From NCBI GenBank assembly GCA_036320915.1, contig JAXBDG010000004.1:1798001-1862000 (forward strand): a DNA stretch of 64,000 nt. The letters are read 5' to 3'. This DNA comes from Linnemannia elongata (Eukaryota; Mortierellomycota; Mortierellomycetes; Mortierellales; Mortierellaceae). Numbering within the stretch: position 1 is the stretch's first letter; each line of letters opens with the position of its first letter. Shown here in pieces: positions 15,393-23,729 of the stretch. The notes below the pieces were generated by a model. That model was not told the origin of the DNA and did not search any database. It saw only the letters and a program-made list of their open reading frames with translations. Both the position numbers and the translations under genes were made by a program.

Positions 15393-15401
15393 TCCCACAA
15401 A
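15393..15401. repeat. Target site duplication, left (TCCCACAAA)
   Basis: The nonamer TCCCACAAA directly precedes the element's left terminus and is repeated at 23528-23536 directly after the right terminus. Nine base pairs is the usual duplication length for Mutator-like elements. Confidence 0.92.
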
Positions 15402-15449
15402 GGGTTAATCTATTCGACAACCCGGGTTGCTCACCTTAGCTGACAACCC
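15402..15449 (+). repeat. Left terminal inverted repeat of the MULE
   Basis: Forty-eight bases, matching the reverse complement of 23480-23527 with about seven mismatches. It contains the perfect palindrome CAACCCGGGTTG at 15418-15429. A related motif, CAACCGGGTTG, follows at about 15479-15489, just inside the terminus. These repeated palindromes are likely transposase-binding sites (inference). Confidence 0.9.
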
Positions 15450-15813
15450 GGCAGTCACACTTTGCAAAATAATTTGTCAACCGGGTTGCGATATTACACC
15501 CTTCAAAGCATTGGCACCAGCCTCTGTCAACGCTTCTGTGCCACTGCCTCAAATACATCTGCCATACCTCTACACTCAGCTATCTGGCCCCCAATCACGC
15601 TGCCATCACCATTTAACCAAGCATATAAAAGTACCGCAGTTCCCCTGTACCATTAACAGCATCTTTTCTTGCCCCTTTCTTTTGTCTTGACACGGGTGTA
15701 CCTTGTTCTCTACCCTTGTTTCTTAAGCCCCTGTCTATACACTTGTCTCCTTCTATTCCCTTGCTCACACCCACTTGCTCTGCTGCTTTTATAGTAGAAT
15801 ATACGTTTATTGT

Positions 15814-16749
15814 CTAATGAGGACGAACAACGTAAACTGGATCGTTTTGAATTCTCTTGAGGGCTTGTTCATCAACCTCCAAAGTGAACGATCCTTCACG
15901 CTTTGTTGATAAAAGGCTCTTGACTGTATCTCTAGTGAGCTTTTGTTCGTACATCAACTCTTCTTGCCTTTTCTGCTGGATATCAAGGTAAATACGCTGT
16001 TGCTCGAAGGCCTTGCGATGTTGTTCCGCGAGGGCGCTCTGAAGATCGGTGCTTTGTTGAACTTGAGCAGTGGTGAAAGCCTGTAAGAACGTCATATGGT
16101 TCTCGGTCATTGAAGCCATAAACTTGGCATGCTGGGCTGTCGTATGCTCGGTGAATGACTCCAAGAAAACTTGATGACGCTCAATCATTTTTTGCTCCAG
16201 AAGCTGCCCGATAGTAGGTTCAGCCACCAAGGCCATTGATGTGGGCGCACGTGAAACAATGACGTCGCCGCATGAGGTGCCGTCGCTCGAGGTACTGCTG
16301 CTTGAAGTGCCGCCGTTCGAAGTGCCGCCGTTCGAGGTGCCGCCCCTTGAGGCGCCGAAGCTTGAGGTACTGGCGCTTGAGATGCCGCCGGTTGAGTCGG
16401 ATAAGCGTAAAGATACATCTTTCTCTTGTCTAGGAACCGAACCATCGACTTGCGCCGTCTTCTTGAGTGCCTCTAGAGCGGTGTTTTTCGCAACCTTGCA
16501 GAGCTGATAGTGGCGTTGTAGAGACGAGTTAAGGGTAAAGGTTGATCCACAGTAGCAGACAAAATCCATGCCCTTTGCGATTTGTCGATTGAAAGTGGTT
16601 GGTTGATCGGTATGCCTGCAAATGAATGTGATGGGTTGGTCTGTGTGGTAGGCTACAACGTGGTTCTTTTGAGCCTTGGATAGTGGTCGACCAAGGACAA
16701 GAAGGCCTTGGCCACAATCATAGTACGAACAAATGGTTCCGCGAGGCAT
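15814..16749 (-). CDS. MULE passenger: zinc-finger/coiled-coil protein of unknown function
   Basis: A single open frame of 311 residues from ATG 16749 (MPRGTICSYYDCGQGLL); the frame stays open upstream to an ATG at 16893. It is transcribed opposite to the transposase. Visible features are an N-terminal segment with paired Cys/His (CSYYDCG, later ICRHTD), a finger-like C-x-C-x12-H-x3-C (FVCYCG through HYQLC), a Gly-Thr-Ser repeat tract coded by a 15-bp minisatellite (about 16275-16395), and a C-terminal Gln/Glu-rich coiled coil. I do not recognise the family. By position it could be an accessory transposition protein, comparable in layout to MURB of maize MuDR, but with no sequence evidence for that. 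Confidence 0.6.
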   Translation of the reverse strand: MPRGTICSYYDCGQGLLVLGRPLSKAQKNHVVAYHTDQPITFICRHTDQPTTFNRQIAKGMDFVCYCGSTFTLNSSLQRHYQLCKVAKNTALEALKKTAQVDGSVPRQEKDVSLRLSDSTGGISSASTSSFGASRGGTSNGGTSNGGTSSSSTSSDGTSCGDVIVSRAPTSMALVAEPTIGQLLEQKMIERHQVFLESFTEHTTAQHAKFMASMTENHMTFLQAFTTAQVQQSTDLQSALAEQHRKAFEQQRIYLDIQQKRQEELMYEQKLTRDTVKSLLSTKREGSFTLEVDEQALKRIQNDPVYVVRPH

Positions 16750-16984
16750 GCCAAGAGAGGGTGCTGGAAGGTTTAGTGAGATGGGGTTGGCAAGAAGATG
16801 AAGAATGTGTGAGGAATCGGAGGTGCTATGTTTTCGGATATTTATGTGCCTCATTTTATATACAAACCATTGATATGAAAATGCATAATCCAAAGTTCAC
16901 TATTCAACAGATGATTATGAATAAGACAATACTCTGAAAGAGATACTTGATCAAGCTAGCTGAGTAGCCATATATATATATATT

Positions 16985-17990
16985 CATTGAGGTATCGTAG
17001 CAAGTGTGTAAGGCGCCTCTCTTCCTTGCAAAAACAATTCTCCTTGAGAACGGAGCATGGTATGCAACGGGCATGTACATACATCCTTAAAGATATCGTA
17101 GGAAGTGTGCGAGACGCCTCCCTTCCTTCCAAAAAAATATTTTTTCCCCGAAAGAGGAACGGGGCATGGTATGCAACAGGCATGCACATACATCCTTAAA
17201 GATATCGTAGGAAGTGTGCGAGACGCCTCTCTTCCTTGCAAAAACAATTTTCCTTGGGAACGGAGCATGGTATGCAACAGGCATGTACATACATCCTTCA
17301 AGATATCGTAGGAAGTGTGCGAGACGCCTCTCTTCCTTGCAAAAACAATTTTCCTTGGGAACGGAGCATGGTATGCAACAGGCATGTACATACATCCTTA
17401 AAGATATCGTAGCAAGTGTGCGAGACGCCTCTCTTCCTTGCAAAAACAATTTTCCTTGGGAACGGAGCATGGTATGCAACAGGCATGTACATACATCCTT
17501 CAAGATATCGTAGGAAGTGTGCGAGACGCCTCTCTTCCTTGCAAAAACAATTTTCCTTGAGAACGGAGCATGGTATGCAGCAGGCATGTACATACATCCT
17601 TCAAGATATCGTAGGAAGTGTGCGAGACGCCTCCCTTCCTTCCAAAAAAATATTTTTTCCCCGAAAGAGGAACGGAGCATGGTATGCAACAGGCATGTAC
17701 ATATATCCTTAAAGATATCGTAGCAAGTGTGCGAGACGCCTCTCTTCCTTGCAAAAACAATTTTCCTTGAGAACGGAGCATGGTATGCAGCAGGCATGTA
17801 CATACATCCTTAAAGATATCGTAGGAAGTGTGCGAGACGCCTTGCTTCCTTCCAAAAAAAAATTTTTTTCCTAGAAAGAGGAACAGGCATGTACATACAT
17901 CCTTCAAGATATCGTAGGAAGTGTGCGAGACGCCTCTCTTCCTTCCAAAATTTTTTTTTTCCTTGAAAGCGGACTGGAGCATCACATAGC
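16985..17990. repeat. Tandem satellite array, ~101-bp unit, inside the MULE
   Basis: About nine to ten head-to-tail copies. Successive GATATCGTA landmarks fall at 17092, 17201, 17302, 17403, 17503, 17604, 17713, 17814 and 17908, giving spacings of mostly 100-101 bp. Two variants alternate irregularly: a 101-bp form with CTTGCAAAAACAATTTTCC and a ~109-bp form with CTTCCAAAAAAATATTTTTT. Edge copies (16985-17000 and 17950-18030) are degenerate. Several frames are open through it on both strands because the unit lacks stops, but these are repeat artefacts. Confidence 0.92.
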
Positions 17991-18483
17991 ATACATACGC
18001 ATCCAACCATTGTGGTACCGTAGTATATGTGCAAGGCACCTGGCTTTCTATCTTTTTTTTTTTTGATGCATCGCAAAAGGTACAGCTGGGAATTGATGTG
18101 TTGCGGACTTGCAACATAAACTGGTCCCGCTACAATTTTAAGCATACCAGCGCAAGACGATTACTTTTGACAACCCTGTACTCTCTGTCACTTGTAAGAG
18201 ACTTTAGAGCTGCTTGATCCATAATGAATAGGTGTAATTTGTGCTAAAGGAAAGGCGGTTTTCTCCTATTTTTGACACATCAGCAATAAGCTATAAAAGC
18301 TGATATAGGATAAGGTAGGATAGGAAAAAAACCATCGAGCTTACTTGTTACACTCTTGACCCATCCTTTGCTGATCTCTTTTTCCCGCAGTTCCCGGTTA
18401 GTATTAAACTTATATCCAGTCTTGTTGCACTTGAACAATATGCAGTTGTTAATAGTTGATGTTGTGCTGATTGTAAAGCTAGA

Positions 18484-21400
18484 ATGTCAAGCACCGAGCC
18501 TATTCCTGTTGAGGACTGTCCTCCAAAATCTAAAGAGTCAAGGGTTATGTACAGTACTTACTGGCAAAAGTTGCAGACCGGTCGAATGTTGCTGGGAATT
18601 CCCTTGCCCAATATCAAAACAAATGCCAACGTTGAGGTCATCTATGAGCCCCCGCCACCCAAGGAGAGGATATATGAGGCCAGACTCGCAGCCCTCAGGA
18701 CTATTCCATCAAGAAACATTGCTTTGCAAGCCAACTCCATGTTAGGTATGAAGCGCATAAACAATATCGTTTTCATTTGCCTTTGCATCATTTTTTGGAT
18801 TGAACTATTCGACAACCCCCCCTCCCATTTTTTTTTGGTATATAACTCTGTGCTAACTTTAGTAATCCTTTTTTTATAGTTGAAGCTGAAGGGGCTTGGG
18901 GAATTCGTATCGAAGGCATAGGCGATTTTACATCCGCAGCTGTCAAGATCTTACTAGGTGCGGTGGACACGAACATTTTCATCGTCAAGGCCAGAGAGAT
19001 ACTGAATTGGATCGATGTAAATTCCGACCGTGAGTTCGCCGATTGGTTCCGTACCCTTCTTTACACTACCCCGGGCATCATGATGTGGAAATTCAATCCA
19101 ACGTCTGGCGCGTCGCTAGGCATTTCAAACACCTTTGACCTCATGAAAGAGATTTACATTGACGATGAGATTGTGCGTACAGTCATGGAGCTCTTTTCCA
19201 TGTCATATGGTGCAAACGATCGATATCTCTTCATTCCTCCCCTTCAAATCATTCTCTGGGGTCAAAATATCCTTTGGGAATGGAAGAAGGACCTAGTCAA
19301 GAGTGGGCGACTTGAAAAGGCATTCGCGATTGTTCATATGCCGGATCACTGGGGTGCTCTTGAAGTCGATTTTGAGCGGCGCAAGATCTCATTCGGGGAT
19401 TCTCTCTCGTGTTCTATCCCTGAAGTGACCATCAACAACGTTCGCAATTGGATAAAATGCTGCGGCATTGACATTGGTCGGTGGGACTGCGACACTGGAC
19501 ACTTTGCCGTTCCTCAACAACCTCCTGGAAGCGGATCGTGCGCTGTTAATGCCATTAATGCAGTGGAGAGGAGCGTGAATCCAAGGACGGCAATTTGGAC
19601 CCATACAAAGTCTGCGCAACATCGATTAAGGCTTCTTAAGCTGGTAACTGGCTATAGCAAGGTAAATATTGTTACAAAACATCAAGCTTCATTACTATGT
19701 ATGAAAATATCTTTCTTTACAACCTAACAACCGCTGTTAACATGTAGATCGAACCTCAAGGTCATTGCAATGTTGCTACAAAAAGTGATCGGAACCGAGA
19801 GGTAAAGATACTTGATCACAGAGCCGTATCGGGAATGAAGGCTGCTATGGGGAAGGTTAGTGAGGAGATTGGTAAGGAGGAGATTGCCGAGGTGGAGATT
19901 TCTGAGGTGGAGATTTCTGAGGAGGAGATATCTGAGGAGGAGATTGCCGAGGTGGAGATTTCTGAGGAGGAGATTTCTGAGGAGGAGATTGCCGAGGTGG
20001 AGATTTCTGAGGTGGAGATTTCTGAGGAGGAGATTTCTGAGGAGGAGATTGTCGAGGTAGAGATTTCTGAGGTGGAGATTGCTGATGAGGAGATTGCCGA
20101 GGAGGAGATTTCTGAGGTTGGGATTCCTCAGGTGGAGATTTCTGAGGTGGAGATCACTGGAGGGGAAGTTGCTGAGGACAATGCTGGTGGTGAAACTAGC
20201 GTGGTGGACAAGCCTGATGAGACGAATAACGGATCGATGTGGATACCTCAGCTTGGCCAACAATTTGAAAGTCTGGAGATCTTTGAAGATCTGGTCCATC
20301 CTTGGGCACACCGACAAGGATTTCAGTTGCGACGAATGCAGTCTAGACTTGAAGAACAACATGGCCAATGTCCCCGAGGTAAATAATGAAACTGCTAGTT
20401 GTACGTGCTCCTCCTTGAATACAATTTCCGTCTAACCCATGTATTTTGTTTATGAATAGTAATTTTTGGTTGCTCTTACGCCGGCAAACACGAATCGCGG
20501 AAAAACGTGGATCCAGAAAAGCATCGCAACAAGATTTCCAAGCGCACCAACTGTCCTTGCCGTATTGTTCTTCGATCTCCAAAAATGATATCTCCGTACT
20601 GGCACATCACCACCGCTGTCACAGCTCACAGCGGTCACGGGTTCGAGCAAGGCACCATGGAATTCAACCGACGCGACAGACAGCTTACCGACAAAATGCT
20701 GGAGCAGATTTCTTCTCTGGCAGGCAGATTCAACGCAAAGCAAATTATCTACTTGCTGAATCAAGAGTGGCCTGACAAGGTGTTCGATCTTCGAACGGTC
20801 ACTAACGCCATCCAAAAGGCGAGGAACAATGTGTACTCTGATGGCTCCGAGGCTGCAGAGTTATACAAGCTTCTACAAGACAAGGCGCGCAAGGACAAGG
20901 AATGGTACTTTGCAACAGAACTTGATGCCGAAGGACGCCTTCAACGAATATTCTGGATGAGTCCTTCTCAGAGATCCCTCTACCGACGTTATCGGGATGT
21001 GGTCCTCAGCGATAATACCTTCAAGACGAACCGGTTTGGTATGCCCTTCAATGCTATCGTTATCGTCGACAACAGTGGAAAAAATCGCCTGGTTGGATGT
21101 TCATTGGTCTCCGGAGAGCACACAAAGGACTATGAGTGGATTCTTCGACAGTTGTTGATGGCAAACGACAATCTTGCTCCGCATACTATTATTGTCGATA
21201 ACGATCACGCAATGGAAGCTGCCTGCGCCAGCGTCATTGGACGCACGGTTCTCTTGAACTGCATCTGGCATCTTGGTCATCAAAATCTAGGTAGAAATCT
21301 TCGTGGCGCGCTCGGCAAGGACTGGCAGGCTTTTATTTCCACTTTTTGGACTACACGAAATGCTCTCACAGTTGTCGATTTCGAGAATAGATGGTCGCAG

Positions 21401-22294
21401 CACGTTAAAGTCTTTGGCGTTGACAAACCAGACGTTGAGGCTTACTTGGAGTGGATCTTTAAGCGTCGCGAGCACTGGGCGTGGCCGTGGGTTGGTACAA
21501 GATTCACCGCTGGAATTCAAGCAACACAAAGGGTGGAGAGTGTAAACGCAATCATCAAGCGAGCCGTTAACAGCAAGACCTCCCTTCCAGTCCTATTCGA
21601 GTCTACTGAAAAGATGCTATCGGATGAGGCCAGGACGTCGCGGTATCTACACTACAGGATGGATATGACAGCTGATCCTTCACTGACCCAATTCACCAAG
21701 AAGATGTTTGCTGATATTATTGATGTGAACAGTCGCTTTCTTGGCATCGCAGCAAAAGGCCAGATGATGATGGAGATGATGCGATCCATCTATTATCAAT
21801 CCGAATTGCACCAAGCTACCAAGGTCGAAAGAGCTGCCGAGTGCAATGAAGATCAGCCAAACGAGGCTGGCGATGATGACAAGGTAAGCATATAATAAAA
21901 TCGTGAGATGATGAAAAATACTAAAGCCCCCCCAAAAAAATGGTCAAGGCATTAATGATTGATATTGCCTTCGTCTGTAGTTTGAAAAGGCGTCCAAGGA
22001 TGAAGGCCTACCAACCGAGCGCAGTGGGGAGCAATTAAACGAGGCAGGCGATGTTGAGGAGGTAAGCTTATTTAAAAAAAAAGATCGTTTGTTGATGAAA
22101 GTTGCTAAGCCCCCAAAAAAAAATGAATAAGGCGCTGAAGATCGCTCTTGCCTTCGTCTGTAGTTTAAAAGAGCATCCAAGGGAGAAGGCCTACCAACCG
22201 AGCGCAATGGGGAACAATTAAACGAGGCAGGCGATGTTGAGGAGGTAAGTTTATAAAAAAAAAAGATCGTCAGTTGATGAAAGTTGCCAAGCCC

Positions 22295-22325
<31 letters not shown>

Positions 22326-23307
22326 TCAAGGCATTAATGATTGCTATTGCCTTCGTCTGTAGTTTGAAAAGGCGTCCAAGGAAGAAAGCTCACCAACCAA
22401 GCGCAGTGGGGAGCAATTAAACGAGGCAGGCGATGTGGAGGAGGTAAGCTTATAAAAAAAAAGATCGTTAGTTGATGAAAGTTGCTAAGCCAAAAAAAAA
22501 AAAAAAAAAGACTAGGGCATTAATGATTGCTATTACCTTCGCATGTAGATTGAGAAGGCATCCAGGGATGACCGTCTGAAAACCTCGCTCAAGTCCTTGA
22601 TGGCAACTGTCACTTGCGACCGGATTAAGTGCGTGTTTGATGTGACATACCGCCTAGACGTTGATCAAAAGACACGACAGCATGTTATCCTGCTGAACGA
22701 CGACTCGTATCTTTGTACTTGTCTTCTGCTCCAAAACAATGGACTTGTGTGTCGGCACTTTTTCCACCTCATGCAAGTCGATAGTCGATGCAAGTATCAT
22801 CTCAAGCTTATTCCCAGACGGTGGTTCAAGGAAGAGCTGCAGGATTCAATTGACCTTGAAGAGTCGATGGGGCCTTTCCTGCGCACCAAGACGCAGAAGG
22901 CATATGTCGGCTTGGAGGACGCAACTGTCAACCCTGCCGCCACGTACATGGTCGATATTCAAAAGATTTTTCCATTGGCGCCCTCCCTCTCGCGAGATGA
23001 TCAAAGCCAGCTTTCAAAAAAGCGCCGCTATGGCGAGATATCGGGTCTGATGAAGGATATTATTACGGTGGTAGACTCAAATCCGGACGTGTTCGATATG
23101 GTCAAGGAGAGTCTCGATCAAGTCATTGTGAAAGGTAGAGGAGTTGAAGGAATGAGGGATCCAGTTCACGTAAAGACGAAAGGCAGACCCAAAACGTCGC
23201 GGATAAGGAGTGTAACCGAGGTCAAGAAGCACTCGACAAAATGTGGAGTATGCAATGGAGAAGGTCACAATGCAAGAAAACATCGTCGCTCTCAGTTTGA
23301 CCCATAG
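18484..23307 (+). CDS. Ulp1-like protease / FAR1-MULE transposase fusion protein
   Basis: Eight exons chain exactly in phase: 18484-18745, 18880-19661, 19748-20378, 20460-21883, 21981-22061, 22164-22244, 22363-22443, 22549-23307, giving 1,366 residues. Order of modules: a C48/Ulp1-like cysteine protease with the catalytic His in HWGALEVD (~243), then Q-x-P-x-GSGSC with the Cys at ~306; an Ile/Glu/Ser pentapeptide linker (~385-487); a FAR1-type zinc-binding domain (FEIFEDL-like start, VIFGCS, KRTNCPCRI); and a MULE transposase core with Asp in VVLSDNTFKT (~743), Asp in TIIVDNDHA (~801) and Glu in RVESVNAIIKR (~916). Three near-identical 27-residue exon repeats follow. Then come a SWIM finger (LCTCLLL through VCRHFFHLM, ~1167) and a zinc knuckle CGVCNGEGHNARKH near the end. 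The transposase mobilises the element; the protease substrate is unknown. No frameshift is visible. Confidence 0.85.
19860..20165 (+). repeat. Coding minisatellite (15-bp units, EISEE-type pentapeptides)
   Basis: About 20 tandem 15-bp units such as GAGGTGGAGATTTCT and GAGGAGATTGCC-containing variants, in frame in exon 3 of the transposon gene. They encode alternating EVEIS, EEEIS and EEEIA blocks, which form an acidic linker between the protease and FAR1 modules. Confidence 0.9.
21884..22548 (+). repeat. Tandemly repeated intron-exon cassette
   Basis: Three copies of an 81-nt exon (21981, 22164, 22363) each preceded by a similar intron, spaced 178-199 bp apart. Each exon has phase 0 on both sides and encodes FEKASK through NEAGDVEE with few changes. 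Each intron starts GTAAG, has a GATCGT block, an A-rich tract, GGCATTAATGATTG and ends CTTCGTCTGTAG. A fourth intron copy precedes exon 8, which begins IEKASRDD, and exon 4 ends NEAGDDDK, so the duplication unit spans the original intron and its flanking exon edges. Confidence 0.93.
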
Positions 23308-23479
23308 AACGACCTGGATTAAACAAAGACGCAACATTTATGCACAAAAAATACAAGGTGATATTAGTCCAGGTAAAACGGTTGAGCCTCAGGCCTTCTG
23401 TTATACGGCAACCCGGTTGGAAAATGAGAATAGATTGGGGGGTTGTCAAATAAGCCATGAAACTTTCCTAATAAGGAAA

Positions 23480-23527
23480 GGGTTGTCAAATAAAATGAGC
23501 AACCCGGGTTGCCAAATAGATTAACCC
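23480..23527 (-). repeat. Right terminal inverted repeat of the MULE
   Basis: Read on the minus strand it begins GGGTTAATCTATTTGGCA and pairs with 15402-15449. The palindrome CAACCCGGGTTG recurs at 23500-23511. Further inside are additional GGGTTGTCAAATAA direct copies (about 23442 and 23480) and CAACCCGGTTGG (~23409), so this end looks expanded relative to the left. Confidence 0.9.
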
Positions 23528-23536
23528 TCCCACAAA
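23528..23536. repeat. Target site duplication, right (TCCCACAAA)
   Basis: Perfect 9-bp copy of 15393-15401, directly abutting the right terminus of the element. Confidence 0.92.
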
Positions 23537-23657
23537 TAATCATTCATCGCCACCATGAAGCCATTGAACGGTCCGCATAAAAATTAGTATTCTCGAACGA
23601 TAAATAGGAAGCAATTACAACCGCTGTTAAGGCTAAGAAAAAATACAAAAAGAGAAG

Positions 23658-23729
23658 CTCCTTGGCGGGGAATTGAACCCCGGTCTTCCGCGTGACAGGC
23701 GGAGATACTCACCACTATACTACCAAGGA
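23658..23729 (-). tRNA. tRNA-Asp (anticodon GUC)
   Basis: The 72-nt sequence read on the minus strand folds as a full cloverleaf. Acceptor stem TCCTTGG pairs perfectly with CCAAGGA, the discriminator base is G, the D-arm contains TAGTATAGTGGTGAGTA, the anticodon loop is CTGTCAC (GTC = Asp), and the T-arm is CCGGGGTTCAATTCCCCGC, which also serves as the B box. There is no intron. A run of five T residues, the pol III terminator, follows at 23651-23647. The gene lies 130 bp from the MULE insertion, with the element downstream of its 3' end. Confidence 0.97.

Follow-up and report, generated by a model that had tools for sequence, protein, structure and literature searches.

Ulp1-type proteases sit in several unrelated kinds of transposon, where their role has been called unexplained or merely suggested, and both transposable elements (TEs) that carry Ulp1 and Ulp1–transposase fusions are already known, from Ginger1, CACTA elements, and plant Mutator-like elements (MULEs) (PMC2836005, PMC2528002, PMC13317346). 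Among plant elements, KI-MULE has its ULP domain opposite in direction to the transposase and lacks terminal inverted repeats (TIRs) (PMC2528002), melon has an Ulp1-like domain in MULEs that include TIR elements (PMC2528002, PMC13317346), and grapevine MULEs have ULP sequences downstream of the transposase open reading frame (ORF). Plant Ulp1-bearing VANC genes go with anti-silencing, the role of their Ulp1 being unexplained (PMC13317346). In Ginger1 of Hydra, one polypeptide holds both the DDE transposase and an Ulp1 (or OTU) domain, and the same paper reports an Ulp1 domain encoded by Mutators of hydra and lancelet and includes the Ulp1 of "Mutator TPases" in an alignment (PMC2836005); Tnp2 and ULP1 form one protein in a rice CACTA element (PMC2528002), and oomycete Crypton elements carry a C48 peptidase (PMC3212892). 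We analyzed a stretch of 64,000 nucleotides from the fungus Linnemannia elongata (GCA_036320915.1, contig JAXBDG010000004.1, positions 1,798,001 to 1,862,000 of the forward strand; hereafter the window) and describe in it a complete MULE whose main gene is predicted to join an Ulp1/SENP-like protease to the transposase.

The fungal MULEs Hop and Mutyl have a target-site duplication (TSD) of 9 bp (PMC5014426); FAR1, SWIM, or CCHC occur in part of group 35, and Mutyl has an antisense second ORF (PMC6446971). The main text of PMC6446971 is free of the words protease, peptidase, and SUMO, and that of PMC6416283, on TEs in fungal genes, of C48 and MULE. As for placement near tRNA genes, TRE3 and Skipper-2 of Dictyostelium integrate downstream from them, TRE3 at 40–150 bp (PMC5911963); Dada DNA transposons target tRNA and snRNA genes at fixed sites inside, with a 6–7-bp TSD (PMC3706591); and maize Mu does not favor rRNA and tRNA genes (PMC7337890).

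Gene model and domains

The element spans 15402–23527 (8,126 bp), with TIRs of 48 bp and a TSD of 9 bp (Table 1). Its inverted arms, 49 nt long at 15401–15449 and 23480–23528, are 88% complementary, one base of each arm belonging to the TSD. TIRs, a TSD of ∼9 bp, and a MULE DDE domain over the curated Pfam cut-off place it among the MULEs. A first-pass annotation of the window had chained eight exons in exact phase over 4,101 nt, and this chain was borne out to the base: the joined exons encode 1,366 amino acids (aa), with GT-AG introns and a single terminal stop, and retention of any of the seven introns brings in an in-frame stop. The element is probably an autonomous, recently active MULE whose main gene encodes one chain, running from an Ulp1/SENP-like cysteine protease through a linker to FAR1, a DDE/MULE core, SWIM, and a knuckle-like end; the eight-exon gene would be translated as a whole, and the linker between protease and FAR1 is fast-evolving and of low complexity.

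The transposase half is clear to Pfam, which places FAR1 at residues 534–615, a ZSWIM1-3 RNaseH-like domain at 706–808, and MULE at 739–830 (74.5 bits against a curated cut-off of 27.6). The DDE core residues, read by eye from the alignment, are D743, D805 (or D807), and E918, and a SWIM motif lies at residues 1170–1184. The earlier prediction of FAR1, MULE core, and SWIM stands; its zinc knuckle does not, since residues 1346–1359 read CX2CX4HX4H in the window's own protein (family A; see below), with CCHC found only in family B and in a Mortierella alpina protein, P0020.

The protease was identified through a profile of its relatives, because the window's own protein has no match to Peptidase_C48 (PF02902), at E 0.1 or at E 1. 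The Pfam profile does accept relatives (family B at 22.4 bits and P0020 at 27.1 bits, E 4.6e-6, with a cut-off of 20.7), and four of the 18 members of alignment A1 match it, the best at E 0.0035. Searched singly against PDB sequences with phmmer, the window's domain gave matches at E 0.12–1, of which nine of 11 were SUMO proteases, whereas a profile of 11 related domains reached SENP1 at E 2.5e-12 and Ulp1 at E 2.6e-8. The active-site residues H244, D261, Q301, and C308 (our own renumbering onto the window protein) align to SENP1 and are invariant in all 11 domains of alignment A2 (the window, P0005–P0010, P0018, families B and C, and P0020), down to 21% identity. The domains left out of A2 (P0002–P0004, P0011–P0017, and P0019; some short, some long-tailed) keep the His, Asp, and Cys where these sites are covered, and P0019 has Phe in place of the Trp beside the catalytic His. 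An AlphaFold2 model of the domain has a mean predicted local distance difference test score (pLDDT) of 88 and a predicted template-modeling score (pTM) of 0.84; Foldseek matched it to SENP1/Ulp1 structures at E ∼1e-8, probability 1.00, and a template-modeling score of 0.64 by query. SENP1, Ulp1, SENP5, and SENP2 ranked first, followed by NEDD8 and ubiquitin proteases of the same clan, with viral core proteases lower down. The C48/Ulp1-like protease of the first-pass annotation is upheld by profile, fold, and active site and fails against Pfam C48 on its own sequence; the catalytic residues of both enzymes are, as it had said, visible.

Because the catalytic set is conserved, we expect the protease to be an active enzyme. 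A comparison with the relic locus L022 gave ratios of nonsynonymous to synonymous substitution rates (dN/dS) of 0.37 for exon 1, 0.93 for exon 2, 1.06 for part of exon 4, and 0.66–0.67 for exon 8. Purifying selection was dropped as an argument, the exon 2 ratio being near 1 and the comparison uninformative because the relic is dead. As to function, deSUMOylation is favored because SUMO proteases come first in the fold search: the protease may strip either the transposase or chromatin proteins at its work site of SUMO or a similar modifier.

Copies, families, and relatives

In the 51-Mb assembly (32 contigs), family A has 11 near-identical copies of 7,405–8,587 bp, 10 of them with a 9-bp TSD and one (L010) with a 7-bp match. 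The window and L016 are the most alike, with a single mismatch across 7,924 aligned bases when gaps are disregarded; the family has evidently moved recently. Ten of the 11 copies keep an unbroken fused frame. Among the 11, exon 3, which carries the linker, measures 601, 631, 676, or 721 nt, in steps that are always multiples of 15; these steps support the fused frame only mildly, as the repeat unit by itself would give the same ones. Farther along, at 21981–22548, an exon-plus-intron unit stands three times in tandem, its exons 81 nt long and in phase in all 11 copies, while introns 4 through 7, together with the exons between them, add up to 664–674 nt in the nine copies measured.

A search of the genome with PF10551 gave at least 40 matches, 22 of them above the cut-off (11 in family A, two in B, four in C, and five in D). 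At each of these 22 MULE loci a protease match lies upstream in the same orientation, those of the five D loci being weak taken alone (E 0.001); none of the 18 matches below the cut-off has an adjoining one. In family B, three exons chain to one 1,561-aa frame with a Ser/Pro-rich linker, and the second copy is open too, with a linker 24 nt longer. The intron behind the protease has phase 0 and the intron in FAR1 phase 1 alike in the modeled A, B, and C genes. A, B, C, and P0020 are 21%–39% identical to one another in the protease and 34%–39% in the DDE part, so that the domain plan they have in common is old. Family D, as read at L021 and L040 out of five loci, is family C carrying an insertion in the transposase exon; over 4,768 bp, L040 and family C are 99.7% identical. 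A 391-aa protease frame is still open in family D, and its copies may be moved in trans.

Named protein relatives come from Mortierella, Podila, Linnemannia, and Entomortierella. The case that the first-pass annotation set against a fusion, a protease encoded separately in every relative, does not hold: P0020 is annotated as a single 1,326-aa protein with C48 and MULE matches (the latter 22.6 bits, below the cut-off of 27.6) and a SWIM motif. Among all 19 relatives (P0002–P0020), read by eye, nine continue into the linker, six of these to FAR1; six end after reading into the intron and four are cut within the protease. P0015 and P0012 reach FAR1 with part of the protease missing, and P0011 and P0017, overlapping forms of nearly one protein, read through the intron.

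Alternative readings of the gene

The linkers bear on whether the protease cuts its own chain, releasing free protease and free transposase from a polyprotein in the manner of adenovirus-type clan CE proteases. The motif [MIL]xGG, which we take to be an adenain-like cleavage consensus, occurs in four of ten linkers against 0.54 expected (P 0.0008 in shuffles), and viral core proteases do appear in the fold list. The motif was, however, picked after the linkers had been seen; it is missing from six of the ten, varies in position, and was scored on three linkers that are incomplete (P0002, P0004, and P0018), and the fold search ranks SUMO proteases ahead. We consider such self-maturation unlikely and set it aside as the principal reading, its support being weak and motif-based; of the two functions offered by the first-pass annotation, removal of a modifier fits the fold ranking better than maturation of the transposase.

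Doubtful to a slightly greater degree is a gene with two products, in which intron 2 is often retained to yield a short free protease beside a fused or separately started transposase. Retention of intron 2 leads to a stop after 21 codons, six gene calls (P0005–P0010, jgi/lgn sources) end inside that intron, and the Yarrowia MULE Mutyl is alternatively spliced, according to a title cited in PMC5014426. The six calls nevertheless look like the output of intron-blind prediction, and the named annotations P0002, P0004, P0018, and P0020 cross the same junction without an intron.

Separate neighboring genes, with the eight-exon chain as a modeling artifact, are very improbable. Such a reading can point to linker sequences that are unrelated between families and to a chain known from DNA alone, with splice sites fitted in B and C. 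Against it, the linker frames are open over 517–892 nt in A, B, and C, beyond chance: no stop-free sequence arose in 1000 dinucleotide shuffles each of A exon 3, B exon 2, and C exon 5, and the nonrepeat part of A exon 3 (224 nt) stayed stop-free in 11 of 1000. The joining introns can be placed alike in the three families, linker length changes are in frame, and P0020 is an annotated fusion. Least probable of all is a catalytically idle protease that serves only as a tether, binding SUMO or some other partner, since four catalytic positions are invariant in 11 domains, even if the substrate-side residues lie outside those compared.

Several results weigh against the reading of an active MULE with a fused protease, beginning with the missing C48 match in the window's own protein. 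The Pfam C48 profile gave seven matches in the genome, finding family B and missing A, C, and D; they are the two B copies, a group of three adjacent pieces resembling a host gene (C2:1680316-1681041), and two others. The dN/dS values against L022 do not show a sign of constraint on the protease. A search with the fused query found no homologue when scored on the protease region and a single one, among the best 7,994 candidates, when scored on the transposase region. Copy L015 has its fused frame broken by a 1-nt deletion in exon 1, the transposase exon is interrupted in L021 and L040, and the family C model is incomplete at its end. The B and C splice sites were chosen among several candidates to keep the frame, so that their shared phases are partly by choice, and the fusion model as a whole was built from genomic sequence. 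Within that scope, the one polypeptide from a single gene that was first proposed gains from intact copies, in-frame linker polymorphism, shared joining introns, and an annotated homologue, and we regard the predicted single-gene fusion as well supported.

Placement behind tRNA genes

Nine of the 11 full family A copies lie 41–129 bp behind the 3′ end of a tRNA gene, and the nine genes differ, representing eight amino acids (Asp, Ile, Ala twice, Leu, Pro, Tyr, Val, and Arg). L010 and L012 have additional tRNAs farther away. Neither ARAGORN nor Rfam found a tRNA at L014 or L017; by eye, L017 interrupts a B-box-like stretch, which was kept out of the tRNA count.

The TIR pattern occurs in the genome at the 22 ends of the 11 copies and at 26 further sites, and a reversed control pattern at none. 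One of the 26 (L058:116-548), read fully, is a miniature inverted-repeat transposable element (MITE) of ∼426 bp with 86-nt inverted arms and family A–like TIRs, and 14 of the 15 regions inspected contained the other MITE end. At 21 of the 26 MITE sites a tRNA gene lies 32–135 bp away with its 3′ end facing the element; C9:1283905 and C9:1285571 have identical flanks and count as one event, which leaves 20 of 25 independent sites. Fifteen of the 21 were scored on flank sequence and six via tRNA coordinates, four of the six assuming a length of 426 bp, and where a tRNA stood on one side, often only that side was inspected. The five sites with no tRNA are C1:4341219, C11:989797, C27:1220178, C15:191563, and C30:736315. 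The genome search scored 63 of 1,419 first-look tRNA candidates; even with all 1,419 taken as genes, a generous number and no proven ceiling, chance would put 0.15 of 37 insertions in the 150-bp windows behind tRNAs. Family A's placement behind tRNA genes is well supported.

Two neighboring observations stand outside these counts. The full-length relic L022 was dropped as a further case, the neighbor of the tRNA at about L022:2368 being a MITE end; that end (L022:2005-2400), ∼79 bp behind a tRNA-Pro gene, is outside the pattern list. At G000:C30:843857-850875, a MULE-like fragment (847053–848085) lies between two pairs of tRNA genes.

Because most copies lie just behind tRNA 3′ ends, the RNA polymerase III (Pol III) machinery probably leads the transposase to tRNA genes. 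Whether the protease has a part in this is a guess. A cut-and-paste family that settles behind tRNA 3′ ends, with its fused SUMO protease removing SUMO at the target, whether from Pol III chromatin or from itself, is a tentative proposal that we put forward with little confidence; the link fits reports of SUMO at tRNA genes in yeast and mammalian cells (PMC6128692). No tRNA was found around the two family B copies, which carry the protease, and this speaks against a simple link. None was found in the C and D loci either, in stretches that stop short of the element ends.

Other features of the element

Antisense to the main gene lies a second gene with a C2H2-like stretch, read by eye, for which a Pfam scan gave no match above the cut-off. 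Its frame is open in all 11 family A copies, and family C has a related antisense frame near the protease (35% identity over 81 aa). A minisatellite within the element is, from its position, a likely cause of the length differences among copies. The TIR motif TATTCGACAACCC is found, at up to two mismatches, at 11 sites in the window against 2.55 expected, eight of them within the element; one copy inside intron 1 is exact, and a weaker one with two mismatches (18164–18176) lies upstream of the main gene. As a guess, these internal motifs might enable the transposase to act on the gene that encodes it.

Table 1. Features of the element and its surroundings (window coordinates)
Feature	Position	Strand	Basis or remark
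Left TSD, TCCCACAAA	15393..15401	none	same 9-bp direct repeat on both sides
Left TIR	15402..15449	+	arm alignment
Antisense second gene	15814..16854	−	346 aa from first ATG; 360-codon open frame to 16896
Minisatellite, unit ∼101 bp, within element	16993..17950	none	repeat scan
Exon 1, N-terminal region ahead of protease	18484..18745	+	gene model
Exact internal copy of TIR motif TATTCGACAACCC, intron 1	18806..18818	+	motif scan of window
Exon 2, putative Ulp1/SENP-type protease domain (H244, D261, Q301, C308)	18880..19661	+	model, alignment, profile, fold
Exon 3, linker and start of FAR1	19748..20378	+	gene model
Acidic pentapeptide array in linker, 15-bp unit, 19.5 copies	19862..20154	+	repeat scan
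Exon 4, remaining FAR1 and DDE/MULE core	20460..21883	+	model, Pfam
Exon 5, first of three duplicated 81-nt exons	21981..22061	+	model, repeat scan
Exon 6, duplicated 81-nt exon	22164..22244	+	model, repeat scan
Exon 7, duplicated 81-nt exon	22363..22443	+	model, repeat scan
Exon 8, SWIM motif, CX2CX4HX4H knuckle-like end, stop codon	22549..23307	+	gene model
Right TIR	23480..23527	−	arm alignment
Right TSD, TCCCACAAA	23528..23536	none	same 9-bp direct repeat as left
Host tRNA-Asp(GTC), element 129 bp behind its 3′ end	23657..23729	−	tRNA search

Discussion

In titles and abstract openings, with papers behind paywalls mostly out of reach, we found no N-terminal protease fusion in fungal MULEs, no MULE aimed at tRNA genes, and no fusion at every strong MULE of one genome. 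A physical fusion whose active site is intact across three divergent families in a single genome would tie the protease to the transposase itself and make its role addressable with one gene in one assay. The placement behind tRNA genes amounts to a Pol III–linked target choice in a cut-and-paste element, otherwise described, in the accessible literature, for retrotransposons and, inside genes, for Dada; family A provides a DNA transposon whose target choice spares genes.

Set beside known systems, the element shares with the plant Ulp1-bearing MULEs (KI-MULE/KIU, melon, rice, and grapevine) the pairing of a Mutator-like transposase with an Ulp1-like domain. The first-pass comparison with KI-MULEs holds loosely, for the Ulp1 companion, and breaks down in architecture: unlike KI-MULE (KAONASHI), where the domain is reversed and TIRs are absent (PMC2528002), the L. 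elongata element has TIRs, and its protease is upstream, on the same strand, and apparently fused. Ginger1 combines a Gypsy-integrase-like core with a C-terminal protease and a CCGG/CCGT TSD, whereas here a MULE core follows an N-terminal protease and the TSD is 9 bp, which sets the element apart from Ginger1. The Tnp2–ULP1 protein of CACTA is a like fusion of transposase and protease in a different superfamily, and Cryptons likewise bring C48 into a DNA transposon but are tyrosine recombinase elements. Hop and Mutyl have the same 9-bp TSD, with no protease mentioned there, and the antisense second ORF of Mutyl recalls the antisense gene described here. In its choice of target the element differs from Dada, since insertions lie 32–135 bp outside tRNA genes and the TSD is 9 bp in 10 of 11 full copies. 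TRE3 and Skipper-2 are retrotransposons with unrelated enzymes, but their placement downstream from tRNA genes is alike, and the nine full family A copies, at 41–129 bp, fall within the 40–150 bp of TRE3.

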